Assembly (NCBI GenBank): GCA_037176725.1 | Contig: JAZBRS010000049.1 | Location: 14,960,001-15,024,000 of the forward strand | Length of the DNA: 64,000 bases | Direction of reading: 5' to 3' | Source: Posidonia oceanica | Taxonomy: Eukaryota; Streptophyta; Magnoliopsida; Alismatales; Posidoniaceae | Shown: positions 1,722 through 43,563 of the stretch, one piece after another | How positions within the stretch are numbered: position 1 is the stretch's first letter | How the letters are laid out: each line of letters opens with the position of its first letter | The notes under the pieces: generated by a model | The model's database searches: none | The model's input: the letters and a program-made list of their open reading frames with translations, nothing else | Told to the model about the DNA's origin: nothing | Translations under genes and position numbers: made by a program

Positions 1722-1880
1722 GCCGTAATGCCGTCCAACGTTAGCCGTGGTGCTTCAAGCGTCCAACGTTGAACACTAAAAATCTAGTGTCCAACGAGTC
1801 AAAGTAGATTTGAGAGCAGAAAAGAAGACCCCGGAGCACATCGAGTCAACAAAGCAAGCTAAGTCAAAAAGTATCCTTTT
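1722..1880. repeat. Remnant with GTCCAAC-type hairpins beside LTR F
   Basis: Contains several CGTCCAACG motifs and the inverted pair GTTGAACACTA / TAGTGTCCAAC around 1,765-1,800, a diverged relative of the double hairpins found in LTRs A, C and G. It then runs into a CGGAGCAC motif and the tandem arrays of element A. Its membership (A or F) is uncertain. Confidence 0.4.
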
Positions 1881-4807: not shown

Positions 4808-4891
4808 GTTGTCCGCTGGATTCTCAGCGTACAACGTTGGCCGCTGGTTTTCCAGCGGTTAACATTGGCCGCTGGCTTTCCAACGTCCAAC
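4808..4891. repeat. Triple hairpin array in LTR A
   Basis: Three consecutive units with about 12-base arms and about 4-base loops: GTTGTCCGCTGG / TCAGCGTACAAC, GTTGGCCGCTGG / CCAGCGGTTAAC, and ATTGGCCGCTGG / CCAACGTCCAAC. Same architecture as the double hairpins of LTRs C and G but with different arm cores. Confidence 0.85.
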
Positions 4892-5063: not shown

Positions 5064-5120
5064 CGTTATACGCGAGTTCTCTTGCTTATAACGTTATACG
5101 CTGGTATTCCAGTGTATAAC
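5064..5120. repeat. Double hairpin just upstream of the LTR A TATA box
   Basis: Two units: GTTATACGCGAG / CTTGCTTATAAC and GTTATACGCTGG / CCAGTGTATAAC (loop TATT). The arm core TATACG replaces GGACG of the other arrays, yet both arms changed together. It ends 65 bp before the TATA box. Confidence 0.8.
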
Positions 5121-5184
5121 ACTTCTGAAACAGGAAACTCTACTGACTTGGCATTTGTGTCCTTTTTTGTTCCTCCCTTGCTTC

Positions 5185-5192
5185 TATAAAAG
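5185..5192 (+). promoter_or_regulatory. TATA box of LTR A
   Basis: TATAAAAG in a C/T-rich context, followed about 30 bp later by GTGTTGAGGGCC, a plausible transcription start. It is the clearest TATA box in any LTR of the window. Confidence 0.6.
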
Positions 5193-5631
5193 CATGGGTA
5201 CCCCTACAGTGTTGAGGGCCGGAATTTTGAGAGAGAAAAGAGCTAAGAAACTTTTGGAACTCACATGCTCTTGAGATTAAAAATATTAGAGAAGTGAGGT
5301 CCTTAAGAATTGAAAGAGAGAAGAGAGTTTTTGAAAGAAGGAGAGTCTTAGAAGAAGCTTGAGGATCCTTTTGTCGTTGTTGGCTTCATGCCAACACGGT
5401 TTGCACCTTGTGCATAGACAAAGGAGACTCTATTTCATTCATTTCTTTTTTATTTCTGATATTGCATGTTTAATTCCGTAGTATAATCAAGCATTTTTAT
5501 TTCAAGCTCATATACTTCTAACTAGGCATACATCTCTTTCATTTGCAACCGGGGGGATTAAACCCCTTGGGTACGTATCTCACTACGTTTTCTTTACTTT
5601 CATTTCTACTAACTCTAGATATATTACTACA

Positions 5632-8720: not shown

Positions 8721-11700
8721 TGTAGCGATCCCAAAATTCGGATCGTCCATGCATGATGTCAAAGCTCGCGTGCACCGATCAGAACTAGGTTCATTATTAG
8801 TGGGTGGTCCGAGGAGGAAGCTTGACTCAAAACACCGAAAACAGGGATGCAAAGCCAAAGGGAAAAAGAAAGAAAGGACAAAAGGGAGTCGCCACCAAGT
8901 CTATTATTGGGAAGACGAGGAAAACCAAGGAAAAACATAGAAAACAAGCAAATGAATGCAATGTGATACAGAAAGGATGACTCGTGCCAAAGACGAGGGC
9001 AAAATGGTCACTGCGGGCTAGAGAAAGGGTAAGGACTCCTGTTACGTGCGGAGAAGGTGTTACGCACCCCCGACACGCCTGAGAAGTCAGTCTTTCTAGG
9101 CTAACTCGCTCGCATATGCCGAATATCGGCAATCGCTTGCCTTTGCTATACACCCGTAGGCGATAGATGCCATGCTATGCTATATATGCTTTAACTGCTT
9201 AAAGTGCCTAAATGCCATGTATGGAAATTAAATGTGCTGTCTATGCGCTCAGCAGCGCTGCCAGTGTTCCGAATCAGGCGGATCTTGGTTCGTAAGAACT
9301 CCAAGCAGCAAGCATCACTGCCCTAATGCAAATGCAGGCGATAAAGTAAAACTGCGAGGAAGATCATACAATGCAAGCGACATGCAAGGGAAAGCAAGCA
9401 AAGTGGGTGCGAGGCTAAAACCACAAGAAAGCGTGCAAGGCGAGGTGCAAAACATAAACTAGGGTCCCGACAACATGCATGGGTGTCGTAGGCATGTACC
9501 GGGACCAGCGAACTGCAATGGGCAGCGATCAAAACGGATGCGGCGCTTAAAACAAAGGAGCAGCTTACTGCAAGTGTTGGACGTAGCCACCAGCAGCGTC
9601 CAATGTTGGACGCTGGGATAGCTGGCGTCCAATACAGACAACAAGCGAAACAGCAGAAAATCATGCATATGAGTTTGGAAATCATGGGTTTGATGCAATG
9701 TAAAAACCCACGGGCAGATAGAGCATGCTGGGAAACCAAAATACAAGGCCCAGAAACCAAAAGCAAGATCCAAACGATTTTAAAACGGGCAGAGGGTGTT
9801 GGACGCTCAGAATGACAGCGTCCAATGTTGAACGCTGGGAACTGAGGCGTCCAACAACCAAGCCATGCTTTTGAAAGAAATGCATGCATGCAGGCTATAT
9901 AAATGCGATGTAAATGCTGCATGAGAGTGCATGACATGTATAACATGCAAGGTAGTCAATATAAACATCCAGAAGGAGATTCAATGGCAAGATGCAAGCA
10001 TGAATGAGGTTTAAGCTACTGCAAGGTGTTGGACGCTAGAACATACAGCATCCAACATAGGACGCTGCAGTATCCAGCGTCCAACACTCTAGAACAGACA
10101 GATGGCAAGATAGCATGCAAACTGGTAGAGCAAATATCAAGGCATGCATTCATGTTGCTGTAAACAAGCATAGGCAGGGCATGCATACAGGGATCAAACA
10201 AACATAAGAGATCAGAGCATCATGCAAAGCATTTAAATGGAAGTTACTAAGCAGAAACGTAGGACGCTGGTAACATCAGCGTCCAACGTAGGACGCTGAA
10301 TGTTCCAGCGTCCAACACATGAAGTATGCAAACCCACCTGCAAGGGGGAGCTGAGCTCAAAACGCCACTCAATCATGCATGCAAACAACTGAGAATATGC
10401 CAGATCATGACAAACCACACAAGCCAAGCATGTAATCCATAAGAAGCAAGTAAGAAAGAGGTGCAGAGAAATAAAGGGATAAAAACCCCACATATATAAA
10501 CATGCGGTTAAAGAGGAGACTAGCAAGCTTAAACATAGGTGCCATAGAGGCCAGACATCACTAGGCATGCATAGATCATAGATATAACTCAAAAATAAGC
10601 AATATGCAAGCATGGCAGCAGATGTAAGCAAGCAGGGAAGAAGGACGTTGGATGCAACAGCGTCCAATGTTGGACGCGACGCACTCCAGCGTCTAACACA
10701 GGCAAGCAGCACATTGATCTAAAGCATGAAGTACTGATCCAAGCAAGGATCAAAACAAGATATTAAGCATGATAAGGCATCAATGAACATATAAGGAAGC
10801 ATATACCACAAGCTCATAAACATGTAAATAAAGCATGGCAAGCTTGAAAGCAAAAACAGAGCAAAAGAAAATAGTGAACAGTTGGGTGTTGGACGCTGCA
10901 CTATGGCACGTCCAACGTTGGACACACCAGGCTGTGCGTCCAACAAGTCGGGAACTTTCCCAGCCAAAGAAAGTTGCCAAATCAGCCAAAAAGCTTAAAC
11001 TAACTTGCTAGGAAGCAAGAGTGGCCGACGACGAGCATGTCCATATGCTCGGTGCCGGAAATAGGTGGGTGGATTGCTCCACCCACCCCCTCCCCCTTGC
11101 GGCCGAAAAGCCAAGGCGGGGAGGGGTGTGTGTTGTGCAAAAGTGCGGGGAAACAAGCTAGTAACTTTACCACATGCATGCACGAGCTATGGGGATCGAA
11201 AGCCTACCTTGGTGCAGCTTGAAGTGGCATGTCCACTCTCGACCAGTCGGCGCGGAAGGTGGTGGCAAGCCAACTCCGGTGAGCTTCCTTGGCGTGTAGG
11301 AGGCACGAGAGGGGGAGCTGGAGGTCTGGGGGCGATCGTGGGTAATCGCTCCTGGCTCTGGTGTCGCTCAGTTCTCTCTCAAATGGGTGTGGCCGACTGA
11401 ATTGGGAGGTGAAGTTGCCGTTTTGTTCATGGGTGCATGGGTTCGAGTGTTGGGTTGCAGAGATTTTGCAGGTGTGGCAGTGGCGTGGTAGGCATTGGCA
11501 GAGGTCGCTGGGTGTGGGGAGTCCACGAGGGATGTCAGGTGGAGGCGTGGGCCTTGTCAGAAGGGCGAGAAAGTCCTGGTGGTGGTAGGAGGAGGCGGCC
11601 GAAGTCAGTGACCTGTGGTGAGAGCGGAAGAGGTGCTGGGGAGGAGAGGTTGGCTTGGCAGGGTAGTTACTCACGCTTGGAGGCTAGTGGGTGGCTGTAG

Positions 11701-12084
11701 TGGGCTGAGGGGATGGCGAGTAAGTGTGTACGGGCGGTGGAGGGGACAGGAGGTGAGCCGAAGGTGGCAGAGCAGCCGCTGCAACTCCCGGGACGTTGGA
11801 CACTAGCACAGAGCGCGTCCTACATTGGACGCTGCCCGTGCCAGCGTCCAACACGCCCAGGAGGCCAAAGGCTGAAATGGGCTTGGGCCTTGGTTTAAAA
11901 TGTTTTAAAAAAAGGTGTAAAAGGCTTAGGTTGAGTTGGGTGATGGTTTTGGGTTGGTTTAGGCATGGGATTTGGTTTTTAGGTTCAAATGGGTTAATTT
12001 GAAAAGAGAGAGCCATCCTAGAATCCAAGCAAGCTTTCCAGAGTAGTTCGCCATCTTCCAAGCAGTCAAAATGGGGTGTCAACA
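8721..12084 (-). mobile_element. 3' LTR of element C (3,364 bp)
   Basis: Bounded by TGTAGCGATCCC on the left and GGGGTGTCAACA on the right; on the minus strand it is TG...CA. It is nearly identical to 24,657-27,985. It is flanked by GAATT (8,716-8,720), matching GAATT at 27,986-27,990. Seven double hairpins lie inside. A GC-rich, exon-like part (11,200-11,860) ends at a donor-like AAG|GTAGGC (minus strand, 11,207). Relative to the other copy it has about 30 extra bases near 11,055-11,095 and several C-to-T type changes in hairpin arms (e.g. near 10,648 and 10,923). Confidence 0.93.
9576..11852. repeat. Seven interspersed double hairpins (GGACGCT...AGCGTCC) in the C LTR
   Basis: Copies at 9,576-9,633, 9,798-9,855, 10,028-10,085, 10,259-10,315, 10,641-10,697, 10,888-10,944 and 11,794-11,852. 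Each is about 58 bp and has two tandem inverted repeats of the form GTTGGACGCTgn / ncAGCGTCCAAC with short loops. The first four are spaced about 225 bp apart; sequence between them is unrelated. The same set is present in the 5' LTR, offset by about 15.9 kb (25,509 to about 27,750). Confidence 0.95.
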
Positions 12085-12098
12085 GATGCCCCTCCTTG
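12085..12098 (-). other. Polypurine tract of element C
   Basis: Minus strand CAAGGAGGGGCATC directly precedes the TGTTGACACC start of the left LTR, fixing the orientation: 5' LTR on the right, 3' LTR on the left. The same tract borders the G LTR at 60,173. Confidence 0.85.
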
Positions 12099-12950
12099 AG
12101 CGAGGTCAAGGGGACTGAGGCCGCTGCTCAGGATAGACAAGACACCCCTCCTGATGCCGGTAGGAGCGCAAAATTGCTGTAGGCCTGAGTCACTTATTCA
12201 GCAGATATGCCGAAGATCACGACTCGCCGCCGCAATGAAGATGCAAATGCAATGCTTACACTAATGTGATGCTTACACTAACGCTCATTGCGCTGTACTC
12301 CACTGGTGGAAAAAACGGATGATGCACGCACGTGGTGTGGTGGAAAAATGAATGCAACATCGCCAGGTAGTACTTCGGGAGTGCCAGACGATTTTCAGTG
12401 CCATTCACCTAGCAGTCTCGAGGTGAGGGGCAATGCAAGTGTTGAAAGTAGGATGCAGTGGATGTGCATGCGGTGGTGGGCACGTAATGCCAAGGAAACG
12501 ATCCTGGGCTGTGCACTACCGCGGGCGCCATAGTGAGCAGGCTAACTGTGCAGAGTTGCGGATGCTGAGGATGTCACCTTAAGCAATGCGCGAACTAGGG
12601 GTTCGATTTCCTAAGCACGTCATGTCCGGGAAAGCAGAATGTGGGAATTGGTGTGATGACTACAGAGGAGTAGCAGTGCAATAAGAATGCAATGTGATGC
12701 AATGTTATGCAGTGAAATGCAGGGTATAAATAGTGGAACGTCGAGCACGTGGAACCGAGAAAACGATCCCAAGGCCGTGCACTACTACGGGTGCCATCCA
12801 AAGCCGGTAAGCTGCGAAAGACTTGCGGGTGCCTAGGATGTTACCTTAGGTAATACGCAAACCAAGGGTTCGAATCCTAAGCATGCAATGTCCGTGTGAT
12901 GATGAAATGTTAATGCCATGCAACAGAATGCTATTACACTACGACGAAAG
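12099..12950 (-). other. 3' untranslated region of element C
   Basis: No coding signal. The part next to the polypurine tract (GACACCCC...GCCGGTAGGA..., ACTCGCCGCCGCAATG) is clearly related to 60,187-60,400 in element G. Further in are duplicated blocks sharing GATCCTGGGCTGTGCACTAC / GATCCCAAGGCCGTGCACTA and ATGTTACCTTAGGTAA (12,500-12,860), a roughly 270-bp direct repeat. Confidence 0.6.
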
Positions 12951-13810
12951 GGTGATAAGTTAACAGACTTATCGCCGGATAGTTAGGGAGTATCAGCCCT
13001 CTGAGGAGTTGACGGACTCATCACCGGATAGTTAGGGCTATTAGCCCGCTGAGGAGTTAACGAACTCATCACCGGATAGTTAGGGCTATCAACCCGCGAG
13101 GAGTTGACAGACTCATCACCGGATAGTTAGGGCTATCAGCCCACTAAGGAGTTAACAGACTCATCACCGGATAGTTAGGGCTATCGGCCCGAGGGGTGAC
13201 AGGCCAGCGAGTCTGTCAGGCAAGAGAGGTGGTAACAAGTGGAATGACTTATAACTACGAATGCAACGAGAATACCATACCCGAAGGTGTGGCAGAGGTC
13301 CGTAGACGCTCCCATGACAGTTGGGGATGTCAGCCCAAATGTAGATGGAGATGGGATACCATGGGGCAGCTAAATAAAGATGCCCCTGGTATCGATGAAC
13401 GATACCAGGGGACAGCCGAAGCGCCCATGGCATAAAAATGCAAGATGGAGACAAAACTAACGAGTTTGTCAGCCGAGTAGTTAGGGATACCAGCCCGAAT
13501 GCAATGAGATGGACGAAAGGGCTCATCGTGCGAAGTGCAATGCTGGTGGGGAATGCAATGGGATAATGCAAATGCAAGGTGATAGGTTAACGGACCTATC
13601 ACCGAATAATTAGGGATATCAGCCCGATGAGATGAGGGGGACGATACCACAGGGCAGCAAAAAAGATGCCCCTGGTATCAGGGATGATACAAGGGGACAG
13701 CCGAAGCGCCCCTGGCATCGATATGCAAGGATGGATGGATGGATGCGAGATGATAGGTTGACGGACCCACCGCCGAGTAGTTAGGGGTGCCAGCCCGATG
13801 CAAGGAATGA
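12950..13810. repeat. 48-bp hairpin satellite array of element C (R5)
   Basis: Five regular units (CCGGATAGTTAGGG at 12,974, 13,023, 13,071, 13,118, 13,166; period 47-49 bp) followed by scattered degenerate ones. Each unit holds two small hairpins: GATAG-TTAGGG-CTATC and a variable one such as GATAAGT / ACTTATC, GAGT / ACTC or GACAAA / TTTGTC. A 12-bp perfect hairpin CCCCTGGTATCG / CGATACCAGGGG lies at 13,383-13,411, and a near copy at 13,669-13,696. Confidence 0.85.
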
Positions 13811-14189
13811 ATGCAGGAAGATGCAGAGAAGACAGGTAACCCCCCACGGTAGGTGTGCAATGGTCTCAGAGTGGGCATGCGATGCTACGTCATGGAGTGA
13901 CGAACAAGGGACATGCCGGTCATCAAGGACCTGCCCCCGCGGTGGGTGGCAAAATTTGAAAAGCACGGGGCCTCTAAGTGAGGTAGGCAAAAGTGCTCAT
14001 CCTTGGCTCCGATTTTCGAAAACAGGGAGAAGGGAAGATAAAAATATATTACAGCATGCATGTTTTGGTGGCTTTGGACTCAAAGCAGTTGCGCTAAGAG
14101 GGTGCTTCTGCACTTTCTGACTCAGGAGACTCGATCCTCGTGCAACACCATGCCGAGTTGTGGTCGATGGCTCTCATTGACCTCCTGGT

Positions 14190-14331
14190 ATAACTGCTCA
14201 TACACCCTAATTGGTTCGGGCGTTCTTTGACCTCCTGATATCAAGGTATAGAGGCGCCTCAGGTGGGATCTCACTAACGGGCGAGAGTCCCTGCACCTTA
14301 GCTTTGCAGAGTATAGCCTTCAGCTGTAGGG
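14190..14331 (-). pseudogene. C-terminal remnant of the extra ORF in element C
   Basis: A minus-strand frame reads KVQGLSPVSEIPPEAPLY and ends in a stop. It aligns with the C-terminus of the extra ORF of element G (KVQELWPINEIPLGSPLF at about 62,340-62,400), shown directly by the sequence. The upstream portion is separated by insertion of the solo LTR at 14,332. So C once carried the same extra ORF, in sense orientation, between gag/pol and the 3' LTR. Confidence 0.6.
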
Positions 14332-16859
14332 TGTAGACACCCCATTTTGACATGCTCATTTGGTGGTTTCTCTCTCTGGTAGCTTCAAAATCCTTTTTTA
14401 AACCTTAAAAAATCCTAGAAGAACTCTAGGTTTGCACTCACCAAAATCCTAGAAAAACTCTAGGTAAATCTCTCCTAAAATCCTAGAAAAGCTCTAGGAT
14501 AGCATCTCTTAAACCCTAGGTCAGCATTTAAACCCTAGGTTAGCATAGGATACTCCCATGCATGCACAAGCCCAAGTCCTTCTCCTTCTTTTTCTTCTGA
14601 TTATCCTTTTCTCTCTCCTCATTATCCTTTTCTCTCTCCTCTTTATCCTTTCTCTCTTTCTCCTTTTTTTCCTCTCCTTCCTTCTTCTTTTCTTGTTCTC
14701 CATGGGCTCAGCCCATTTCCTCACTTCTTCCCCTTCCTTTCTTTTATTTTATTTCTATTTTTATTTTATTTTATTCCATCTTATTTGTTTTTTAATTTCC
14801 TTTTTCCCTTTCTTTCCTTCTTTCTTTCTTTCTTTCTTTCTTTTCTATTTTCCCATTTCTTTTTCTCCAAAGCCCAATCCAGCCCCCTTCCCTTTTCATT
14901 TTTATTTTCCCCTAACCAAGCCCAGCCCACCATTCCAACCTCCTTCCCTTTATTTTCTTTTTTTCTCTCCACTCAACCCAGCCAAGCCCGGCCCAAAGCT
15001 TCCCTGCCTTTTTTTCCTCTTTCATCAAATCCAGGCTCGGCCTGCGATCCCCTCCTTTTTTCCCTTCTCTTTTTTCTTCTTCCTCTTCTCCTCCCAGCTA
15101 CTGCAAACCACTTCTCACCCCCCCCCACCCCCCATGATTTCCCTCCTCTTTTGAATCCCTGACAGCAGCCGCGTCTCCACGGCACGCTTCCCCTGCCAAG
15201 CCAGCCCACAGCCCCCTCACAGCCGCGCCCCATTGGCCTGCCATAGCACACAACCACCCTCACTGCCACCCTCTTCCATTTCTCCTGTTCGTCCTTCCCC
15301 CACTCAAGTGCAACTCCTCCGAACAAAACCAGCACCTTCTTCCCCCTTCAGACCTTACCTTTCTAGAGCGTGCAATCGAGAGCAACCAGCAACTAGAGTC
15401 TCTCCTTCCTCCTCTTCCAGTGCTTCCAGTTTTCTTCCAAGCAACCTAGCCACCTAATAGCTCCCACAAATGCCCGCATTCCACTCTCCAGACCCACACC
15501 TAACGACCCAGCTTCCACTCCCCACATCAGAGCCCAGAACACAACCCAGAAACCACCCAAACACCCACAGCCTTCACACACACACAGACTTGCCATCTCC
15601 TTCAAAATTCTCAGCCCTTAGCCCACACCATCTCCTCCAGCTCTTCCATCCCACTCCCTGAGCATCCACCTTCCCAAGACATCCCTCCATCCAGCCCGAC
15701 ACACCCTGTGCATCCCCAGTTCCACCACAAACACCTATGCCCAGAACCTGCCTGAAAACCTCCAACTTCTCCACCTCACTCCAGAACAGCCTCCACCCCA
15801 ATCCGACCCTTCCTACACCTTCACAGAAGTCCCACCAACCCAGAGGGAGAGCCTCGAGCTCAAGAGAGAGCCACACCTGCAAAAAAGAGAGAAAAATTCC
15901 ACAGTCAACCCAATTCTCAAAATCCTGCTCAGTGCAACGCAACGGCCTTCTGGTTTGCTCCGGACCTCCACCGGACCTCCTAGAACTCACACCGATCCTC
16001 CCCAACAGTCAGCACCGCCCGCAGCACTGCCCCGACCTCCGCCGGCACAGCAGCAACCCATCGAGGTCGACAGACCTCCTCAGCCACCTTCACAGGTAAG
16101 TGACTTTATTTTCAAGCTCCATGCATGCTCCTTTTGCTTTCTAACTAATTAGAAATAGGATTAGAAGCCTAGCCTAGGAAGTCGTCGCCGCCACTCTACC
16201 CTTCGTCTTCAGCGCCGGCAGACCACAGCAGAAGCCTCCTGCTGCGCTCCAGGCTCTGCAGCTCTTCGAATTGCTCCCCGAGCTCTGCCAGGCCTCCAGC
16301 AGCAGCCTCCGCACGCCCGCAGCAGCTTCCTCCGTTGCTGAGCTTCGCCGGACACCTCTGCAAAATTTGCAGAGGTTGTCTAGCAGCTCCAGCCACCTCC
16401 CCGTGTCGCTCGAGCCACCGACGCGTCCACAGCAACTCCCTCCAGCTCCCCAGCACCTCCGCAGCAACTGCAGCATGCCGGAACCACCGTGCAACTGTGC
16501 TTCTTCTCCGACGACGATCTGCACCGCCGCCGCGCCTCCGACACCCGCAGCCCTCCGGATCTGCTCTCCTAGCACCGCCGAATCACCAGGAAGACGATCC
16601 GATGCCGCCCCAGCCCTTCTGCAGCCTCCTGCGACCGCCCCACCTCTGGCAAGTTTCTGCAAATCGACCTACGTCAGTAGACCGCGCTGAGCGACCTCCC
16701 ACGCCGCCAAGACCATCGCCGTGCTCCCCTATGCCAGCTCCAGCCTCTTGGGCCATCAGCTTAGCCTGCCGCTCACCGAATCGCCGCCGTGCTTCCTCCT
16801 CCTCTACTGCAGTGCTGTAGGTGTCAAAAGACACTGTAGCACTGTAGCAACTTAAATCC

Positions 16860-18300
16860 AGCTTTTATTTTTTTTATGTTAATTGTTGCATTGCATTTAG
16901 GCCCCTAGGTTTCTTTTTCTTTGCATCTAGGTCCTTGCATCAATTGCATTTCATTTAATGCATGTATTTAAACTATATTGCATTAAAATAAAGTATTGCA
17001 TGTTTCTTTATTTGCACTCAGTCCTTTTTAGCTTCTGTAACTTAAGTTTATTTGCATGCATTGCATTTAGGACCTTATATTTATTTTATGTTTGCATTTA
17101 AGTCCTGCATCAATTAAAATTATTTAAATTAGCATTTTAACTTTATTGCATTGCATCTAAGCCCACTGCTTTACTTTATTTGCACTTAAGTCCTAAAATA
17201 AATCACAGCATGCAATTAATTTAGCATTTTACATTACTGTATTGCATTTGCACCCCTACACTTTAATTTATTTGCATTTTGGTCCTAATTAAATCACAGC
17301 ATGCATTTAATTGAAAATTTTACCTTGCTGCATTGCATTTGCACCCTTAGCTTCTAATTTAATTGCATATTAGTCCTGCATCAATTAAGCATTCATTTAA
17401 CATGTATTTTTGACTTTATTGCATTGCATAAAACATCTGCAAGTTCTGAAAATTACATTTAAGTCCTGTAACATGTTTACATGTGATTTAAATGAGATTT
17501 TCTTGCCTTATTGCATTGTAAATAAGTCCCCAGAGTTTTAATATTTGCATTTAGGTCTTGTTTTGCTATAAACTGTGATTTAAATGCAAGTGTTAACCTA
17601 TTTACATTGCAATAAAGCCTAGCATGTTTTAAAAATTGCATTAAGGTCCTTCATGCTTCTAGAAGCCCTTTAATTGTATCCTTTTTAACTGCATCGCATT
17701 GCATGCTAATTTTGCACCTCATTTAACTGCATTAAGGACTTGCCTGCATCTAGAAGTCTTTTAATTGCACTTTTAAAGTTAACCTGGCATTGCATTTTAA
17801 CCCTGCATTAGGTTTTAACTACATATAAGCCCTACCTGCATCTAGAAGCCATTAAATGCCACGTTTTAACTTCATTGGCTTTGCATTTGCATCCTATATT
17901 TGCATATAAGCTCTACATGCATTAATCTTTGCATTGAGCATCATTTAGCTGCCATGTTGCATTGCAAGCATGTACAACAGTCATTTGCATTGCATATCTT
18001 AACTGTTGCAGGCTTTAATCTTTGCCATTGCATTGCACAGCATCTGGCATGCTTTCTTGCATTGTATATAGGTCTCCATGCTGCATGCATTTGCATCTCT
18101 AGCCCTGCATTGCATTTAAACCCTGTAGTTTTCTAAATTTGCACAAAGGACCCTATAGTTTTCCAAAATTGCACATAGGTCCCTGCATTTGCATCGTTGC
18201 ATGCATAGCGTCCCCTTGGCATTGCACATGGTCCCATGCATTCATTTGGGCATTGTTAGCCTTCTAACATGTAAGCCATCCAGCATTGCACGCATTTAGG
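16860..18300. repeat. Diverged about 90-bp repeats in the solo LTR
   Basis: Recurrent modules TTGCATTTAGG/TTGCATTTGCACCC followed by TTAGGTCCT(G)CAT and ATTTAATT-AGCATTT. They are the reverse complement of the repeats in LTR B (7,600-8,715 and 27,990-28,400), so the two LTRs belong to one family. No coding content. Confidence 0.7.
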
Positions 18301-18599
18301 AGCTAATTGCACTTAGACCCCTACCTAGCTCCCTTTTGCTGGCCCTTGAGCCTTCTGACTTGCAATCTGAATAACTTTTGATCGGACCGTTGGATCTTTG
18401 CAATCTAACTATTCAGGTCTTTCCGATTGAATGATCTTTCATTTAAACCAAAGTTATCTCAGATCAGGCCTCAGATTCTCAAGATAAGCCCATCTGAAGC
18501 ACTGCATAGCATCCATTGCATTCCCATTTGCATTGCATGCATCATTTTGCACACCTGTATTTGTTTTCTTCTACATTTGCATCGTTTTGCATGCATGCA

Positions 18600-18990
18600 T
18601 ATATTTTCTTCCGCATTTGCATCTGTTTTCTTCCGTATTTGTATCGTTTTGCGTGTTCGCCTTGTTTTCTTTTGCATGTTGCATCGTTTTGCGTGCTGCT
18701 TTGTTTTATTTGCATATCGCTTGCATTTTTGCATCATTTTGCGTGCTCGCCTTGTTTTCTTTTGTATTTTGCATCGTTTTGCATGCTGCTTTGTTTTATT
18801 TGCATATCGCTTGCATTTTTGCATCGTTTTGTGACTCCACCTTGTTTTCTTTTGCATGTCGCCTCGTTTTGCGTGCCGCTTTGTTTTATTTGCATATCTC
18901 CTGCATTATTGCACTGTTTTGCGTGCCTGCCTGCATTTTTTCCTGCTCTGCACCATTTTCCGCACCCACTTTCGTTTTCCCCTTGCATGT
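18600..18990. repeat. About 100-bp tandem repeats in the solo LTR
   Basis: Three to four units with CGTTTTGCGTGC, CGCCTTGTTTTCTTTTGCAT and GCTTTGTTTTATTTGCATAT. ORFs crossing this region on both strands are produced by the repeat and show no known domain. Confidence 0.8.
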
Positions 18991-19651
18991 CGCTTGCATT
19001 GCATTGTTTACCGCTATTTTGCTTTATCGCCTGCATTTGCATTTGGGTAATAATGCTTACTGCCTAGGAGTTCTCACGAACTAGGGTTCGCCCGGTTCGG
19101 AACACTAGCAGCGTTGCTGAGTACATAGCTTGCACGTTTAATTCCCTGCACGCATATTAGCACCTAGAGCACGCATTAGAGCATGCATTCAGACATTCAT
19201 TGCATTTAGGCATTGGGCAAGCATTTCCCTGCATTTGCGAGCGAGATAGCCTAAGAAAGACTGATTCTTGGATGTATTGGGGGTGCCTAACACCTTCCCC
19301 GTACGTAACAGGAGTCCTTGCCCTTTCTCTTGGCTCGCAATGACCTCTTCCTTCATCCTAGGCACGAGTCATAGCATAGCAGAGCATTGCATTGCATCGC
19401 ATCTCTTTGCATCCTCTTTGCATCCGATTTTGCATGTCTTTTCATGCATTACCCTCAGTTTTCCTTATCTCCCAATTTAATAGACATGGTGGCGACTCTG
19501 ATTTGTCTTATCATTTCTTTTTCCTCTTTTTACCAGCATTTCCGAGTCAAGTTTCCTTCCTCAGATTCCGCCGCATATAGTGAGCCTAATGTCGATCGGT
19601 GCACGTGAGCTTTGGCATCATGCATGGATTCGATATTTCAGGATTACTACA

Positions 19652-20659
19652 CAGGGTAGCAGAAGCGTTGGATGCAGCTTCTTAGCCTCCGTCTCAATTC
19701 CTCGGGGACCAACTACCGCTTTTGACCCTCACGAAATAGATCTTTCTTTTCCCCTCATGAGTGACTGGAGTTGCATCTAGCTTGCCAAGGAGGTGGTTGT
19801 TGTCTGTAGAGGGGATTGGAGCGTGCTGCTGCGCTCGGAGGGTGGGGCCAGGTGCTCCTGATAATGCATCCCGTGCAGTTGGCAATGCGGTGCTTGAAGT
19901 TGATAGCTGAGGGGGCTTCGACACTCATCCGAGTCACTCCTCTCATGAGCACCTTCTTTCTTCAACTTCTTGCTTCATTGTTCTTTTATGCTCAGCATGC
20001 ATATCATGTTATCATCATTTTTTTCTCACATGACCTCTATTCTTTTGGATATGCATATCTTCGCCCTCTTGGGGTAGCAGTCCCGGGTGAGGCATTGAAA
20101 GTTCGGCTGATCAACGTACACCCTCAGCCTCTGCAATATGTAGACAGCCTCTGGCTATGCTCTGCTCTACTTTGGTCCTCTCCATGATCGGTGGACTCTC
20201 TTGATAAGGTGGATCTTGCTTCTGGGAGTTTTGAACTCAGCAAGATGCTCTGTTCTGCTCTCAGTCTCACTATGTAGCCACATGCAAGAGATGGCACTGC
20301 TCAGGTGAGACTTGTCTGAGATTGTCACTGCTTGACATCCTCTAGGTGCTGCTTGTTGTCCAAAGCCGAGTTTCTGATTATACAAATGTTTGTGGGTTTT
20401 GTATTTTTTTAGAAAGGGGGAAGGACAAACATGTTTTTAGGTTTTTGCATTGGTTTTGTATTTTTTATGGTTTTTGGTTTAGGAAAACCAGCAGAAAGGC
20501 GAAGAAAATATTTTTACGGTTTTTTGATTTTCTTGATTTTTTTGTTTTTGGTGCTTTTGTCTTTCATAGGATGCAAGAAATGATATGTACATGCAGTAAA
20601 TGACGATACATGATGACAGATATGTGCAAGATGATTGATATGCATGCAAAGTGATTGAT
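19652..20659 (-). other. Element C interior between solo LTR and small hairpin array
   Basis: No recognisable protein domain. The part 19,690-19,965 has a minus-strand open frame of about 76 codons, low in resemblance to anything I know; it could be the middle of the decayed extra ORF. The T-rich stretch 20,380-20,560 (GGTTTTTGCATTGGTTTTGTATTTTT) is partly repeated at 20,905-20,960. Confidence 0.4.
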
Positions 20660-20875
20660 ATGTGCCAGGTGATAAGTTGATGGACCTATCGCCGAATAGT
20701 TAGGGATATCAGCCCGAGGGTGATAGGTTAACAGACCTATCGCCGAGCAGTTAGGGTTGCCAGCCCAATGATGATAGGTTAACGGACCTATCGCCGAATA
20801 GTTAGGGATATCAGTCCGATGATGATAGGTTAACGGACCTATCGCCGAATAGCTAGGGATATCAGCCCAATGAGA
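20660..20875. repeat. 54-bp hairpin array, 4 units, element C (R5b)
   Basis: Units read GGTGATAGGTTAACGGACCT-ATCGCCGAATAGTTAGGGAT-ATCAGCC. Each holds GATAGGT / ACCTATC and ATA..TAT-type arms. It is the same family as R5, so the array flanked the extra-ORF region on both sides. Confidence 0.8.
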
Positions 20876-21040
20876 TGCAGGGAATGAATGCAAGAAGCAA
20901 AAAGGGATGTATGTTTTTAGGTTTTGTTGATTTTATACTTTTTATGATTTTCTGACAAGGCGAGAAAACACAAAAAACAAAATAAAACGAAAAGAAAAGA
21001 CAATGTAGGAATCAAAAGAGAGGCAAGGGAGACTTACCTG

Positions 21041-23521
21041 TCAACAACCTCGGGAGGGAGGCACTAGTTTCGCTCCTACGCTGCTGATGCTGTCGACGAG
21101 GTCCACTGTTGGCAGTGTGGGGAGCACTGGGGCTATTGGAGCTGCTGACGGCAGTGCAGGGAGCATTGGAGCTGCAAAAGTTGGAGGAGGAGCTAACCTG
21201 GATGACGCTGCGACTAGGCTTGCCATCGACGCTGCCGTTGCATCTCTAAGCATCCCTCGGACGAGATAAGAAAGGCAGGGAAAGGGGATTGCGCCGATGG
21301 GATCAGAAGGATCCACTAGGGCAGAGCTGGACTCAGAAAAGCCTGGTGTAAACCCCCGAGGTTCCAACAGCTGCAAAGCCTGCAGGCTCAGAAGATGAAG
21401 GGTCAGCTACACTAGGGTGTGCGAGTGCAAGTGCAAGTGCATGTGCAAGTGTATGTGCAGCCTCCTGCTCGTCAACGCTGATGATCCTGCGATCGATCAG
21501 GCGCTGAACGGCATCCCGGAGAGTGAGGTAGTCATCCATCGAGTGCCCGGTGGCCCGATGAAAACTGCAGAACTGATCCATATTATGCCACCACGGAGAG
21601 GGGTTTGGTGACGGACGGACAGCCAGGAGTCTCAGGAGCGACTCAACTTGAGGGAAGATGACACTCAGTGGTTTAGGCAGAGGTGTGTAATCACACTCAG
21701 CCCGACGAGGTCGTCTTTGCCCTGGATGGAGTCCTTGCCGAGTGGGTGCGACGTGATGCACGGGCTCGACGGTGGCAGTGTGTGCAGTGGGTGCAGTGGG
21801 TGCATAATTAGGTGCGTGCTCTAGCGGAAAAGGGTCTAGCTGACTCTCTACATAGGTAGGCTCTTCGAGAGGATCAGCGCATGCTTCAGTGTGCTACTCA
21901 GAGTAACCAGGAGTAGAGATGTTGTTGTTGTTGCTGCTACAGCGATTGCTGGAGGTGTTGGCCTGCCAAGCCAATGCAGAAAGTGCGGGGAAATGCCCAC
22001 TTCGCAGTGAGCTCTCCACGCGAGCGCAGCCCTAACCAGCGATGCAAAGCTAGTGTTGTGCTGAATGCAAAGCAGAGTCGCAGTTGCTGGCAGCGCCCCC
22101 TTGATGATCATCTCGATAGAATCCTCCTCAGAGGGTCTACCTTTGACCTGGACAGCTAGGAGCGCCAGTGACCGACATACTCCCCGAATGACTCTTGGGG
22201 CCTCTGCCGGATGGCGACGAGATCCTCCCTCTTGGGGATCAAGTCGAGGTTGAATGCATACTGCTCAAGGAAGGCCTGAGAAAGATCAGTCCAAGTCTGA
22301 ACCACAGCCATGTCAAGGGAAGTGAACCACTTGAGCGCAGGACCCGTCAAACTCTTCTGAAACAGGCGGATAAGGAGCCTTTCATCAGTCTAGAGCTATG
22401 CAAGGTCCCCGCAGTACGCCTTCAGATGCAAGATGGGACAGCCTCTACCATTGTATTTATCGAAGTCTAAGATGCGAAACTTCGGAGGGAGTGCGGCCCC
22501 GGGAAAGAGACAGAGATCGTGAAACTGGTAAGACTGGTGGTCCTTGCCCTGCACTAGACGTAGTGCTTTCTCCAGAATGGCAAACTTGTCGTCCTTGGAT
22601 TCTAGAGCTGCTGCTAAAGGAGGTGGTGCAGCAGGGACAGGGGCCACATACACCGAAAAGGACGCACCGAGGTGCTCCTCCGGGTCCACCATTGCGTCGC
22701 CTGGTGGCGCGACATGATGGTCGGCGTATCCGTGCGTGCGTGCGGTGTAAGCAGGAAAGTATGCTGGGTCTGAACTTGATGCAAGGGGGTGGATAGATAA
22801 TATGTTGTGCAACAGGAGGTGCAGAGTGTTGGAGCAACAGTTGCTGCACAGGCGCGATGCTGGGCAGCAGACCTGTAGGGTACTGTGCTCCAACCAGCCC
22901 GAGGTACTGATCACCAGATGGCGGAGGTGCATGCAGTGCATAGTGTTGTGCAGAAGCAGGAGGCAGATGCCGCGCCCCCATCACCGGAGCAGTGAGCAGC
23001 TGAGGCGATGGTCTAGGCGGAAGTGCAGTGTGTGCAGGTGCAGGTGCAGGCTGCAGAAGAACCTCAGGAGTAGCAGGAACACAAGAGGGGCGAACTGATA
23101 GAGTCATGCCCTGCAATGTTTGGGCAATCTCCATCAGGTGCCGATATCGCACTTTAGGGGACCCGTGAGTGGGAACGTTGAGTTGCATGACCGACCGGGG
23201 GGTAGACTCAAGAGGTTGGGAACCTATGGCAAAGGTCGCCACAGTAGTAGGGATGTCGAGAGTGACATAGCCCTGGGACGGAGGGGTCAGAGGCGCCTCC
23301 GGAGCGCGAGGGGCGGTCATCAAGACAGGCTTGCTGACCGGATCTGGAGGGGCGCAGGTCTGCCAATGCCCCGTAGCAAACTGGGGTGCCCTAGACACTT
23401 GAGGGTGGAATCCTGGTGTCACAGAGGGCACAGAGTGAGTGGCAGTAAAATCCAGAGGGACCCAAGTGGTAAACCCCTCCGAGTCAATAGAAAAACGGAG
23501 CTCACCGGCAAACTGGGCCAT
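21041..23521 (-). pseudogene. gag: gag polyprotein of element C (Tat/Ogre type), frame-disrupted
   Basis: Gag forms the virus-like particle that packages the element RNA. Visible in order on the minus strand: N-terminal proline-rich segment (first 300 codons from 23,521), a coiled-coil-like LEKALRLVQGK segment and the FRILDFDKYNGRGCPILHLK motif (about 22,450), the retrotransposon-gag core GPALKWFTSLD...WTDLSQAFLEQY (22,156-22,350), a linker, then CSFHRATGHSMDDYLTLRDA, a knuckle-like motif typical of Tat gag (about 21,580). At least three frame changes and paired TAG stops (near 22,390) break it. Full length would be about 820 codons. No protease or pol follows. Confidence 0.85.
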
Positions 23522-24637
23522 CGCTGATCGAGTCTGAGTGAGGGAAGGTTGCGACGAGAGAGTAAAGATGCGAGACCTAAAGGGGAGCTACTGCCGGAAG
23601 CGACGAGTAGCTTAGAGACAGAGGAGGGACGCTCAGGGTCCGGGCAGCGGATCCTGCACCTACCTATTAAAACAGCAAAGACGTCAGAGGTCGAATGCAA
23701 TAAAGCATTATTAGGGGTGGCATGAATGGCATACGTGCAGATGAATGCCCTAATATGCGCTCTCTCACCATGCATGTCCTGAGTAGATGACCTACTAGGA
23801 CGCACTCATGGGTAATGGGATTTATTGACTCCAGGTCAAAAAATAAGGCTCCCGTCTGGACCCTGGCCCAGAGCTCAGGTATAACGGGTGGCGCCGTAGT
23901 GGCCTTGACCCTGCCTAGGCATGGGCTGTACCCTCTAGTAGCACCGACACAACCCCAGACAAGGGGGGACAGACTGACCTACTCGCCTTGTGCCAAAGTA
24001 GCTGAACGAGAGACCGTGACTATCCTTCTCAGACTAAGTGGGTGGACTTAGGGATGAGAAGATGCATTCTTTCTAAAATAATCAGACATGCGATATGCAT
24101 TAGAGTTTTTTACTTGCATTTTATTAACCAGGGGGGAAATTGCAAGTTTAGCTCTAGTTGTGCTTGAATGTTAAATGTTGGCTTTATTGTTGCTTTTAAA
24201 TTTAGCCAAAGGGGAGCAAACAAGTTTCTAATATCCTTAACATGGCAAAAGCATGAAGGGGAAAGAAACAAGAAGTCATGGCATGCGGACAATCACGCAA
24301 CAAGGCAAAAGGCATGTGCATGGCATGTGCATGTGTATGTGGACATGATAGTGGAAAAAGAAACACTCATGTTAAAAGGCAGGTATGGCATGTGCATGTG
24401 CAGTGGCATAGCATTTGTGTAAAACAAAACACTTAACACCCAAAAGGCATGCATAGTGTGCCAAGCAAGTACTTAAGCATGTAATGCGAAAAAATGAAGC
24501 AGCGCAAGCAAACATGGCATAAAGCGAGTAAATAAACAGGCAAGCAGGTAAGCAAGCAAGGCATGCAAAAGCATAAGGCAAGCAAAAACGCAAAAAGCTA
24601 GCGGTGAGAAAGCCAAAACGAAAGTCGGAGTCTTGTA
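23522..24637 (-). other. 5' leader of element C
   Basis: About 1.1 kb between primer-binding site and gag. The part 24,250-24,600 matches the leader of B (ATGTGCATGTGTATGTGGAC, GGCAGGTATGGCATGTGCAT). The part 23,700-24,060 is GC-richer with GTAGCTGAACGAGAGACCGT, also similar to B at 5,755. No ORF of note; long leaders are usual in this lineage. Confidence 0.65.
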
Positions 24638-24655
24638 TCCCCAGCGGAGTTGCCA
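24638..24655 (-). other. Primer-binding site of element C
   Basis: Minus strand TGGCAACTCCGCTGGGGA, one base after the LTR end. It differs by one base from the copy in B (TGGCGACTCCGCTGGGGA). tRNA-Arg is the usual primer of Tat/Ogre elements. Confidence 0.85.
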
Positions 24656-24656
24656 C

Positions 24657-27600
24657 TGTAGCGATCCCAAAATTCGAATCATCCATGCACGATGCCAAAA
24701 CTCGCGTGCACCAATCAGAACTAGGTTCACTATTAACAGGTGGTCCAAGGAGGAAGCTCGACTCAAAACACCGAAAACAGGGACGCAAGCCAAAGGGAAA
24801 AAGAAAGAAAGGACAAAGGGAGTCGCCACCTAATCTATTATTGGGAAGACGAGGAAAACCAAGGAAAAGCATAGAAAACAAGCAAATGAATGCAATGTTA
24901 TGCAGAAAGGATGACTCATGCCAAAGACGAGGGCAAAATAGTCATTACGAGCCAGAGAAAAGGTAGGGACTCCTGTTACGTGTGGGGAAGGTGTTAGGCA
25001 CCCCCGACACGTCCAAGAAGTCGGTCTTTCTAGGCTAACTCGCTCGCATATGCCAGATATCGGCAATCGCTTGCCTTTGCTATACGCCCGTAGGCAATAG
25101 ATGCCATGCTATGCTATGTATGCTTTAACTGCTCAAAGTGCCTAAATGCCATGTATGGAAATTAAACGTGCTGTCTATGCGCTCAGCAGCGCTGCCAGTG
25201 TTCCGAATCGGGCGGATCCTGGTTCGTAAGAACTCCAAGCAGCAAGCATCACTGCCCTAATGCAAATGCAGGCGATAAAGTAAAACTGCGAGGAAGATCA
25301 TACAATGCAAGCGACATGCAAGGGAAAGCAAGCAAAGTGGGTGCGAGGCTAAAACCACAAGAAAGCGTGCAAGGCGAGGTGCAAAACATAAACTAGGGTC
25401 CCGACAACATGCATGGGTGTCGTAGGCATGTACCGGGACCAGCGAACTGCAAGGGGCAGCGATCAAAACGGATGCGGCGCTTAAAACAAAGGAGCAGCTT
25501 ACTGCAAGTGTTGGACGTAGCCACCAGCAGCGTCCAATGTTGGACGCTGGGATAGCTGGCGTCCAATACAGACAACAAGTGAAACAGCAGAAAATCATGC
25601 ATATGAGTTTGGAAATCATGGGTTTGATGCAATGTAAACACCCACGGGCAGATAGAGCATGCTGGGAAACCAAAATACAAGGCCCAGAAACCAAAAGCAA
25701 GATCCAAACGATTTTAAAACGGGCAGAGGGTGTTGGACGCTCAGAATGACAGCGTCCAATGTTGAACGCTGGGAACTGAGGCGTCCAACAACCAAGCCAT
25801 GCTTTTGAAAGAAATGCATGCATGCAGGCTATATAAATGCGATGTAAATGCTGCATGAGAGTGCATGACATGTATAACATGCAAGGTAGTCAATATAAAC
25901 ATCCAGAAGGAGATTCAATGGCAAGATGCAAGCATGAATGAGGTTTAAGCTACTGCAAGGTGTTGGACGCTAGAACATACAGCATCCAACATAGGACGCT
26001 GCAGTATCCAGCGTCCAACACTCTAGAACAGACAGATGGCAAGATAGCATGCAAACTGGTAGAGCAAATATCAAGGCATGCATTCATGTTGCTGTAAACA
26101 AGCATAGGCAGGGCATGCATACAGGGATCAAACGAACATAAGAGATCAGAGCATCATGCAAAGCATTTAAATGGAAGTTACTAAGCAGAAACGTAGGACG
26201 CTGGTAACATCAGCGTCCAACGTAGGACGCTGAATGTTCCAGCGTCCAACACATGAAGTATGCAAACCCACCTGCAAGGGGGAGCTGAGCTCAAAACGCC
26301 ACTCAATCATGCATGCAAACAACTGAGAATATGCCAGATCATGACAAACCACACAAGCCAAGCATGTAATCCATAAGAAGCAAGTAAGAAAGAGGTGCAG
26401 AGAAATAAAGGGATAAAAACCCCACATATATAAACATGCGGTTAAAGAGGAGACTAGCAAGCTTAAACATAGGTGCCATAGAGGCCAGACATCACTAGGC
26501 ATGCATAGATCATAGATATAACTCAAAAATAAGCAATATGCAAGCATGGCAGTAGATGTAAGCAAGCAGGGAAGAAGGACGCTGGATGCAACAGCGTCCA
26601 ATGTTGGACGCGACGCACTCCAGCGTCTAACACAGGCAAGCAGCACATTGATCTAAAGCATGAAGTACTGATCCAAGCAAGGATCAAAACAAGATATTAA
26701 GCATGATAAGGCATCAATGAACATATAAGGAAGCATATACCACAAGCTCATAAACATGTAAATAAAGCATGGCAAGCTTGAAAGCAAAAACAGAGCAAAA
26801 GAAAATAGTGAACAGCTGGGTGTTGGACGCTGCACTATGGCACGTCCAACGTTGGACGCACCAGGCTGTGCGTCCAACAAGTCGGGAACTTTCCCAGCCA
26901 AAGACAGTGGCCAAATCGGCCAAAAAGCTTAAACTAACTTGCTAGGAAGCAAGAGTGGCCGACGACGAGCATGTCCATATGCTCAGCACCCTCCTCCTCG
27001 TGGCCGAAAAGCCAAGGCGGGGAGGGGTGTGTGCTGTGCTAAAGTGCGGGGAAACAAACTAGGAACTTTACCACATGCATTCACGAGCTATGGGGATCGA
27101 AAGCCTACCTTGGTGCGGCCTGAAGCGGCGTGTCCACTCTCGACCGGTCGGTGCGGAAGGTGGCAGCAGGCCAACTCCGGCGAGCTTCCTTGGCATGTAG
27201 GAGGCACGGGAGAGGGAGCTGGAGGTCTGGGGGTGATCGTGGGTAATCGCTCTTGGCTCTGGTGTCGCTCAGTTCTCTCTCGAATGGGTGTGGCCGTCTG
27301 AATTGGGAGGTGAAGTTGCTATTTTGTTCATGGGTGCATGGGTTCGAGTGTTGGGTTGCAGAGATTTTGCAGGTGTGGCAGTGGCGTGGCAGGCATTGGC
27401 AGAGGTCACTGGGTGTGGGGAGTCCACGAGAGATGTTAGGTGGAGGCGTGGGGCTTGTCAGAAGGGCGAGAAAGTCCTAGTGGTGGTAGGAGGAGGCGGC
27501 CGAAGTCAGTGACCTGCAGTGAGAGCGGAAGAGGTGCTGGGGAGGAGAGGATGGCTTGGCAGGGTAGTTACTCACGCTTGGAGGTTATTGGGTGGCTATA

Positions 27601-27985
27601 GTGGGCTGAAGGGATGGCGAGTAAGTGTGTACAGGCAGCGGAGGGGACGGGAGGTGAGCCGAAGGTGGCAGAGCAGCCGCTGCAACTCCTGGGACGTTGG
27701 ACGCTAGCACAGAGCGCGTCCAACGTTGGACGCTGCTCGTGCCAGCGTCCAACACGCCCAGGAGGCCAAAGGCTAAAATGGGCTTGGGCCTTGGTTTAAA
27801 ATGTTTTAAAAAAAGGTGTAAAAGGCTTAGGTTGAGTTGGGTGATGGTTTTGGGTTGGTTTAGGAATGGGATTTGGTTTTTAGGTCAAAATGGGTTAATT
27901 TGAAAAGAGTGAGCCATCTCAGAATCCAAGCAAGCTTTCCAGAGTAGTTCGCCATCTTCCAGGCAGTCAAAATGGGGTGTCAACA
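24657..27985 (-). mobile_element. 5' LTR of element C (3,329 bp)
   Basis: Boundaries TGTAGCGATCCC...GTGTCAACA, followed by GAATT at 27,986-27,990, the partner of 8,716-8,720. It carries the same seven double hairpins, conserved U5 block (24,911-25,040), GC-rich part and donor-like AAG|GTAGGC (about 27,118, minus strand). Hairpin arms are in places better preserved than in the 3' LTR copy, e.g. GGACGCTGG at 26,578 versus GGACGTTGG at 10,642. Confidence 0.93.
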
Positions 27986-33184: not shown

Positions 33185-34705
33185 TAAAGTTCCGTTGGGG
33201 CGACGACGTCGTTGTTGTCATGGCAGAAAATTTCGATAAGGAGAAAGTCAAGGTTGTCTCTTTTGTGTCTTTACAAACTGTCCAGTTCGATCCTAAGCCT
33301 TCTAATGTTCTATATCGTGTCAACTGATTTGAGCCAGTTAATTTCATTCCTGATCTCGATCATGCTAGCCTGGCTGTTCATTGCAACCACTTTTGATGGT
33401 CAAGAACTTGTGTCACAGATGGGGTTATGAGAAAGGAACACCACTCAAGTGGTACGACCAAGGGATCATCGAGCCCGTCGCAGCAGCGGAGAGGAGAGAC
33501 AACGAAGGACTTGGCTACGACTGGCAGCCTCACAAAGATGGATTCGCGTGCCCGAAGAACCGAAAGCTGATCATTCCGTAGGACCTTACCAACTTCATCA
33601 GTGCAGGCACCCCTGATCCCAACTAGAGTCAAACTTCCGCACAGCCAGCACCATTCCAGACTTCCTCACTGCCGGCAGAGGAGTGTGTCTGCGGCGAGGA
33701 CTTCTATTCAGATGAGGAGCATATGACAAAGACAGACCAGACCGGCAAAGAGGTCCAGACAATTGAGCATGTGGCCCCAGGAGCGATCGGAGCCTACTAC
33801 GTTGATTTCGCTTTAGATAATGATGAAGGAGTGATCGTAGAGGCACAAGTAGACAGCAGCTTGCTCGGTGATCTAGAACTTTTGTTTCAAGAGCAGCTCA
33901 CTATGCTGGCAGAGGATGCCGCAGAGCAACATGCGCTGAGGAAAGGAAAGGCAGTGCTTATGGACCTTGAGCCTGAGAGTTTCGACCAGCCGTAGGACCA
34001 TCCAGCTGTCATGGTCTTGGAAGAGTCAGAGGCTACACCTACTAGACCAATCGAGTTGATCATTCCGTAGTCAGGAGGCGGGTCTAGATGGTATGTCCAG
34101 CCCAAGCCCCACCTCAAGCGTGGTGGGGGTCAAAAAAAAAACGCCGATTTAGGTTTGGGCAGTGACCCAAGTGGCAGTAGTCGGATCAGTCAGCAAAGGA
34201 CAATAGCCAGTTCCAGCATCACCTGTGTATACATCAGAAAATCCAAAAAAATTAGAAAGTTTGGAAAAAAAAAAACTAAAACACAGTAGAGGTATTAGAG
34301 GTAGAGCGACCTGGTCAATCAGCAGGTCTGGAGACTACCAGGGCAGAGGTCACACATCGTCAGCATAAGAACACCAGAGTCAGCGTGACCATCTTGAAGC
34401 GTCAAGGGCAGAGCATCGAACGCGTCTTCTCCTTCGATGTCATTGATCAAATTTTTGAGAAGGAGATCCTCTCAGAACTTATTGCATACAAAGAGGAGGA
34501 TGATCAGGAGGATGATGTTGGCATAGAAGAGGAAGCGATGCCTGAATTCCAGCCCTATGACGACGACCCAGAGGGACCAAACCTTCATGTTGAAGAGGAG
34601 ACAGAGGTTGTCAACATTGGCACAGCCGAAGAAGTTAAGAGGTCCGCATCAGCGCCAAGTTGACACCCCAAGCCAGAGCAGAATTCATAGCATTCCTCAT
34701 GAAAT
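33185..34705 (+). pseudogene. Protease-to-RT linker of element D
   Basis: Decayed spacer with short open pieces, e.g. an acidic frame with KRQGQSIERVFSFDVIDQI (34,385-34,663). Such long low-conservation linkers are normal in this lineage. Stops at 33,579, 33,993 and 34,069 are all TAG. Confidence 0.55.
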
Positions 34706-43388: not shown

Positions 43389-43563
43389 GCTGTAACTGGA
43401 GCGTGCTTCAGAGGAGAACGAGAACTGGGAATGGTAGGTGGTGTTTGTTGAGAGAATATCCACAGCCCCAGACAATTATGCCCTTGGTTCCATTAATAAT
43501 TAAGTGTAGTTTCGTTCTCCATTCTGTGGTTGGAATCGAAGAGACGCCACCAAAGTCAAGATT

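Follow-up and report, generated by a model that had tools for sequence, protein, structure and literature searches.

Repeated promoter motifs in LTRs are already known. In plant LTR retrotransposons such as Tnt1, the U3 enhancer repeats are repeated upstream motifs that drive LTR transcription; we know of none in which four boxes abut as a palindrome and the inner segments pair. Retroviral constitutive transport elements, which lie close to the 3′ LTR, consist of hairpin motifs in pairs towards the 3′ end of the retroelement RNA. They recall the cassettes described here in that these, too, could give hairpin pairs in that part of the RNA, with export as a hypothetical function in our case, and we know of no constitutive transport element present in many copies per RNA with boxes kept in sequence. 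In maize En/Spm, the subterminal TnpA motifs form clusters of a short box that occurs in either orientation and is recognised by a protein encoded by the element, and a short box clustered in both orientations is also found in our cassettes; the En/Spm motifs lie at the ends of a DNA transposon and, to our knowledge, have no fixed 29-bp unit. VANDALs are also DNA transposons.

By analogy, the VANC anti-silencing system of the Arabidopsis VANDAL transposons, in which a protein encoded by the element binds the motif and lowers methylation, is probably the nearest published mechanism among those that we found. According to the paper, VANC targets are short motifs repeated in non-coding parts of the transposons, often as tandem repeats, and they vary between related elements (PMC5735166). 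Likewise, the motif found here is short, is repeated in non-coding regions and varies between related families, and a VANC-like system would explain conserved boxes amid changing surroundings. The two cases differ in that the hosts here are LTR elements, the repeats are strict dyads and the box-binding protein is putative; the text of the VANC paper uses neither "inverted" nor "palindrom" (PMC5735166). Among the papers listed by a literature search with most subscription journals outside its scope, we found no description of this four-box element.

The cassettes and the elements that carry them

The window, that is the whole 64-kb stretch of DNA analysed, contains palindromic repeats that are genuine and far above chance. 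Their common part is a box of 9 bp, GTTGGACGC. The box pair GTTGGACGC-N11-GCGTCCAAC, with at most 3 mismatches, occurs 31 times in the 64-kb window against 0.02 expected, and 129 raw hairpins were counted against 8-24 in six Markov-1 simulated sequences. A cassette has four boxes that run forward, reverse, forward and reverse; the two boxes of a dyad are separated by 11 bp and the two dyads by 0 bp, which gives 58 bp; the same design was found in the LTRs of several retrotransposon families.

Seven cassettes, 57-58 bp long, lie on the minus strand in one LTR of element C (9576-9633, 9798-9855, 10028-10085, 10259-10316, 10640-10697, 10888-10944 and 11795-11852), and seven matching ones in its other LTR (25510..27753, minus strand). 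On the plus strand, LTR A has a distal cluster of three 28-bp units (4808..4891) and a proximal cluster of two 28-bp units (5065..5120), which stops 65 bp short of the TATA box at 5185. Six clusters lie on the minus strand in LTR G (58033-58089, 58268-58325, 58498-58555, the single unit 58754-58781, 58954-59010 and 59867-59926), and a degenerate pair of 28-bp units (1740..1795, plus strand) lies outside LTRs A, C and G. The first-pass annotation had counted seven clusters in C, six in G and two in A, and these counts are borne out, one G cluster being a single unit and the distal A cluster having three. It had also described the sequence between clusters as unrelated, and unrelated or nearly so it is (28 spacer/flank pairs, z from -1.2 to 4.5). 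The spacing of 225-230 bp that it had noted is found, in C, for three of the six intervals (222-231 bp), the remaining three being 381, 248 and 907 bp long.

In C-like LTRs, most cassettes are spaced by 219-253, 379-384 or 880-925 bp, the exceptions being 446, 456, 629 and 691 bp. Although the spacers diverge, C and the loci L015, L026, L020, L040 and L050-L052 repeatedly have intervals of nearly 230, 381 and 900 bp; the interval of 880-925 bp is also present in G, L020, L026, L050 and L051. In LTR C, about 850 bp (10946-11794) are free of cassettes and have a GC content above that of the cassette-dense part. L034 and L048 have a cassette interval of 78 bp.

In the whole genome (2.96 Gb in 80 contigs) there are 82,515 copies of the exact dyad with the 11-bp spacing, whereas the spacings of 12-30 bp sum to 728 and the reversed control gives 0. 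The geometry was also evaluated on 253 boxes (matches of at least 8 of 9 bases, window plus L009-L048). Precisely, neighbours in >< orientation had a start distance of 20 bp in 72 cases and of 19 bp in 13, and neighbours in <> orientation a start distance of 9 bp, i.e. abutting, in 43, every other class having at most 9 members; 20 of the 253 boxes were orphans, with no other box within 60 bp. Because 20 of these loci were chosen by the A-like pattern, which permits box gaps of 8-15, the genome counts are the unbiased figures for the geometry. The A-like form GTTNNNCGCTGG-N2-9-CCAGCGNNNAAC has 11,502 occurrences in the genome. In 20 arbitrarily placed 10-kb stretches, at least one unit was present in 6 and adjacent pairs in 4 (44 units and 20 pairs in all).

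Element C (8721-27985, with the minus strand as sense and LTRs of about 3.3 kb) is an LTR retrotransposon by its paired LTRs, their TG...CA ends, its target site duplication and its polypurine tract. The 3′ LTR (8721..12084, minus strand) has TG...CA ends and is preceded, in sense, by the polypurine tract GGAGGGGC, which C, G and A all have immediately ahead of the LTR; the 5′ LTR (24657..27985, minus strand) is 95.7% identical to it, and AATTC flanks both outer ends of the element. By eye, the minus-strand open frames look gag-like, but no Pfam family matched them. A tblastn search of the interior, with the two in-window reverse transcriptase (RT) sequences and one presumed integrase ORF, found nothing. 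Since the open frames have no Pfam match and the search with the RT sequences found no relative in the interior, element C is probably non-autonomous. The host elements had been labelled gypsy; for C, the element on which this label was tested, the empty tblastn result means that no Ty3/gypsy-type pol was found, and C is classed only as an LTR element, probably non-autonomous. The reverse transcriptase at 34703-35356 is plant-like, and the named sequences among its best 120 matches are from eudicots. The protein of the ORF at 42687-43472 had no homologue at an E-value of 0.001, the 6.5 kb upstream of the window did not match any of three in-window proteins, and no match was found in the viral contigs searched.

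In A/D-type LTRs, 12 of the 13 scanned loci gave a TATA box with dyads upstream. In nine of these 12 the end of a dyad lies 54-65 bp upstream of the TATA box, and in 11 one lies 285-295 bp upstream, a recurrent distance behind which common descent may lie. A palindrome of the type CCCCTGCTTCTATAAAAGCAGGGG, complete or partial, encloses the TATA box of these LTRs (LTR A, L031, L033, L034, L036, L037, L038, L041, L042, L044, L047 and L048); in LTR A, the TATA region TTCTATAAAAG (5174..5201, plus strand) is within a partial one. LTR C has three TATA-like words, two of them amid the cassettes. Because a comparison of C-like LTRs found no TATA box in a shared position beyond the final cassette, a U3 position of the cassettes is, for these LTRs, only what we infer.

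Other hairpins and arrays were observed as well. A hairpin CCCTGGTATC...GATACCAGGG is present at many loci, in element C near the 3′ LTR: its sites are 13383-13411, 13669-13696 and 61921-61947 in the window and, elsewhere, L009 2159, L015 4660 and 5996, L016 3446, L018 243, L023 8972 and L025 7360, with a paired GTGTC/GACAC variant in L016 and L025. Tandem arrays lie inside or beside elements at 12958-13191, 20670-20873 and 60716-61850, and the first two have, in or beside them, hairpins with arms made of the repeat unit.

Constraint on boxes and inner segments

Among 208 homologous cassette pairs, which are not independent of each other, identity between families is 87% in the boxes and 54% in the inner segments, against 78% in the flanks, a value raised by their local alignment. 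Within the C family, instead, the minority-letter fraction in non-CpG columns is even, with 2.8% for the boxes, 3.2% for the inner segments and 3.1% for the remaining sequence of eight LTR copies, two of which come from element C itself. Conservation at the family level together with even decay among the C copies means that the boxes are maintained during the activity of the element and decay freely afterwards. An earlier conservation test, on fixed 58-bp sets, gave an identity of 0.73 in its null alignment and was set aside.

It had been claimed that complementarity, not sequence, is what is kept. For the 9-bp boxes, we found the reverse. With shuffles within LTRs, the 105 units of 29 bp have 804 Watson-Crick cells in their box pairs against 805.9 expected, and for pairs across units in 55 dimers the corresponding counts are 427 (427.9 expected) at the base and 415 (419.5 expected) at the apex. 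In the eight C copies, single changes in box pairs (36 giving G.U, 33 A.C and 4 other) stand against 2 double ones. Genome-wide, the change of T to A at box position 3 occurs in one arm of a dyad 9,116 times and in both arms 884 times, i.e. single-arm changes outnumber double ones by about 10:1; the 884 are a 3.5-fold excess over the approximately 252 under independence, which family differences could produce, and uncompensated changes dominate. In homologous units, doubly changed box pairs are compensated in 45 cases and not in 1, with 648 single changes, and this 45:1 ratio is made of repeats of a few inherited events, e.g. the difference between A and D at position 6. The boxes are, according to the tests within LTRs, conserved by sequence and not by pairing.

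Box position 4 gave a signal when pooled (93 against 85.1, p 0.002) and less within LTRs (93 against 89.6, p 0.066), and positions 4-6 of A-like LTRs show weak matching with shuffles within LTRs (62 against 51.6, p 0.011). The arm cores had been described as changing from family to family together with their partners. In fact, C and G have one common box, GTTGGACGC; positions 4-6 do differ in A-like LTRs, and there a changed arm has a changed partner in part, L032, L035, L039, L045 and L046 holding many non-matching arms.

For the variable 11-nt inner segments the complementarity claim stands in part, namely in the combined set of C, G, L015, L026 and L030, and with another pairing than had been proposed. 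Since the inner segments pair across the two dyads, the predicted fold of six of the seven C cassettes is one long hairpin, and the fold partner of a dyad in C is mostly the adjacent dyad, not, as had been supposed, its own inverted repeat. The ten sequences folded have z-scores from -4.3 to -10.4, and the long hairpins have 17-26 predicted cross pairs. As a null, inner segments were shuffled among the cassettes of one LTR. In 15 LTR groups with at least two dimers the energy was -2482.9 against -2400.5 (sd 13.6) for the sense strand and -2363.5 against -2308.9 (sd 12.0) for the antisense strand. A strand-neutral score on 41 C-like dimers from nine LTRs was 194 against 58.3 (sd 25.8), a value reached in 0 of 2000 shuffles; in C alone it was 53 against 18.3 (sd 10.6; 3 of 5000) and in three held-out LTRs, taken jointly, 36 against -5.9 (sd 14.5; 4 of 5000), with 196-397 of 5000 when taken singly. 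The shuffles, out of 5000, that reached the native score were 3 for C, 36 for L015, 88 for L020, 218 for L040, 507 for L026, 813 for L030 and 1617 for G, so that G, L026 and L030 are not significant singly. Native pairs also do better than chimeras made from orthologous sites, with z 3.9 for the score and -4.95 for the energy, mainly at two of the eight sites.

The direct similarity between the two inner segments of a cassette is raised too (z 4.0 and 3.2). Subtracting it from the pairing leaves a non-significant difference (z 1.06) in the 42 dimers that consist of two 29-bp units; in the held-out LTRs the difference is negative (z -1.59) and, by energy, it is at z -1.72 in all 53 dimers (177 of 5000); the held-out signal is equally well explained by direct similarity. 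With a split into two groups made after this overall control had been seen, the 29 dimers of C, G, L015, L026 and L030 have an energy z of -5.4, a direct control z of -1.3 and a difference z of -2.5 (24 of 5000), while L020, L040 and L050-L052, the group that includes the held-out LTRs, have no pairing excess over the direct control (z 0.77). Among ungapped inner pairs of equal length in C-like dimers no perfect complement exists, the best having 8 of 11 positions. Cross pairing was absent from 13 D-type and 15 A-like dimers.

We also considered, and rejected, the hairpin within a unit as the covarying unit of C-like LTRs: a pooled signal at inner positions 10 and 12 was lost with shuffles within LTRs in C (joint inner score 23 against 21.5), L015 (14 against 18.5) and L026 (15 against 18.7). 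It was kept in G (17 against 12.0, p 0.008), in L020 plus L040 (38 against 31.0, p 0.027) and in the D group, whose LTRs are homologous (67 against 55.9, p 0.002), and for all 105 units the score was 199 against 181.6 (p 0.016). Inner positions 10-14 compared with 16-20 gave z 0.64 in C-like LTRs and 1.53 in the D group. The 44 distinct inner segments listed first among the exact dyads, some of which lie within loci already used, had a slight excess at two positions, 10 (p 0.08) and 13 (p 0.03).

Possible roles of the cassette

We tentatively prefer, at somewhat less than an even chance, to read the cassette as a cis-regulatory DNA element in the U3 part of the LTR, for a dimeric or tetrameric box-binding protein. 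The four boxes would be recognised by a putative sequence-specific protein, binding as a dimer or tetramer, and several cassettes, often about 230 bp apart, would raise transcription from the LTR or hold it open against silencing. The pairing of the inner segments would be secondary, as symmetric indirect readout or transient cruciform formation. What was observed is the box, its rigid geometry, its conservation between families, its even decay once inserted and its place upstream of the TATA box in A/D-type LTRs; from this we infer the protein, its oligomeric state and its effect on transcription. Four boxes kept in sequence at a fixed spacing near a promoter have the look of dyads for a DNA-binding oligomer, and the stems of RNA elements normally covary. 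For this reason the DNA reading is preferred to an RNA one, the place near the promoter being that of the A/D-type LTRs. The even decay in the C copies is what is expected for a site selected only in active elements. The inner-segment pairing in the 29 dimers is not predicted by a pure binding-site model.

The main rival, possible but doubtful, is a sense-strand RNA hairpin: near its 3′ end the transcript would fold, for C-like LTRs into a single 58-nt hairpin and for A/D-type LTRs into a series of 28-29-nt hairpins, and would serve export, stability, translation or packaging. The single long hairpins of C with their low fold z-scores are in line with this, but a hairpin has no need of a fixed inner length of 11 bp, and the boxes, which make up most of the stem, do not covary, which is unusual for an RNA stem. 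Similarly, the cross-unit inner pairing of the 41 C-like dimers, its presence in the held-out LTRs taken jointly and the advantage of native pairs over chimeras argue for RNA, yet the score is uneven among LTRs, few sites carry the orthologue signal, direct similarity accounts equally well for L020, L040 and L050-L052, and D-type and A-like dimers lack the cross pairing. In 53 C-like dimers, G.U is at 0.94 of expectation, A.C at 0.74 and other mismatches at 0.68, and a tolerance of G.U confined to one strand would speak for RNA; the gain of sense over antisense, however, is -28.7 kcal (p 0.053), the strand asymmetry is not significant (sign-flip p 0.21) and the antisense strand also has a pairing signal (z -4.9). 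In the outer arms (positions 1-9 of the 29-bp units, summed) there are 54 G.U and 54 A.C. At gathering score, Rfam had 0 matches in the window.

A mutational origin is, in our opinion, quite unlikely. Template switching by reverse transcriptase or during replication in near-palindromes would copy one arm to the other without selection, and the boxes would spread by duplication and conversion. The direct likeness between the inner segments of one cassette (z 3.2-4.0) would follow from it, and some A-like arms match as entire changed triplets; arm copying, however, should mend box mismatches, and a T.T at one box position persists in 12 of the 55 dimers at the base and in 10 of 55 at the apex. 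Furthermore, C-like inner pairs have no perfect complement, and conversion leaves the fixed geometry unexplained. That the hairpins serve as a dsRNA source for small RNAs is highly improbable: long hairpins with that many cross pairs are indeed predicted, but it is hard to explain why selection would retain a trigger of the element's own silencing, and dicing would presumably need no sequence-conserved boxes in short stems. The mechanisms proposed in the first-pass annotation (a structured RNA, a protein-bound DNA dyad or a dsRNA source) include both leading readings, DNA and RNA.

Returning to the DNA element, an extended form of it, which we regard as unlikely, is a shared box code, in which many diverged LTR families, including a probably non-autonomous one, would dock one trans-acting protein at a site that is a hairpin or cruciform and must fold. 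The boxes would then be read by sequence and the middles kept solely by pairing. If this were true, one factor would license transcription or escape from silencing across a large part of a 3-Gb plant genome. The abutting four-box palindrome, with its single-base geometry and over 82,000 exact dyads, sets two kinds of constraint apart within one short element, namely boxes kept in sequence and middles kept partly by pairing, and it offers a testable handle on how the elements that fill a large plant genome are switched on or shielded.
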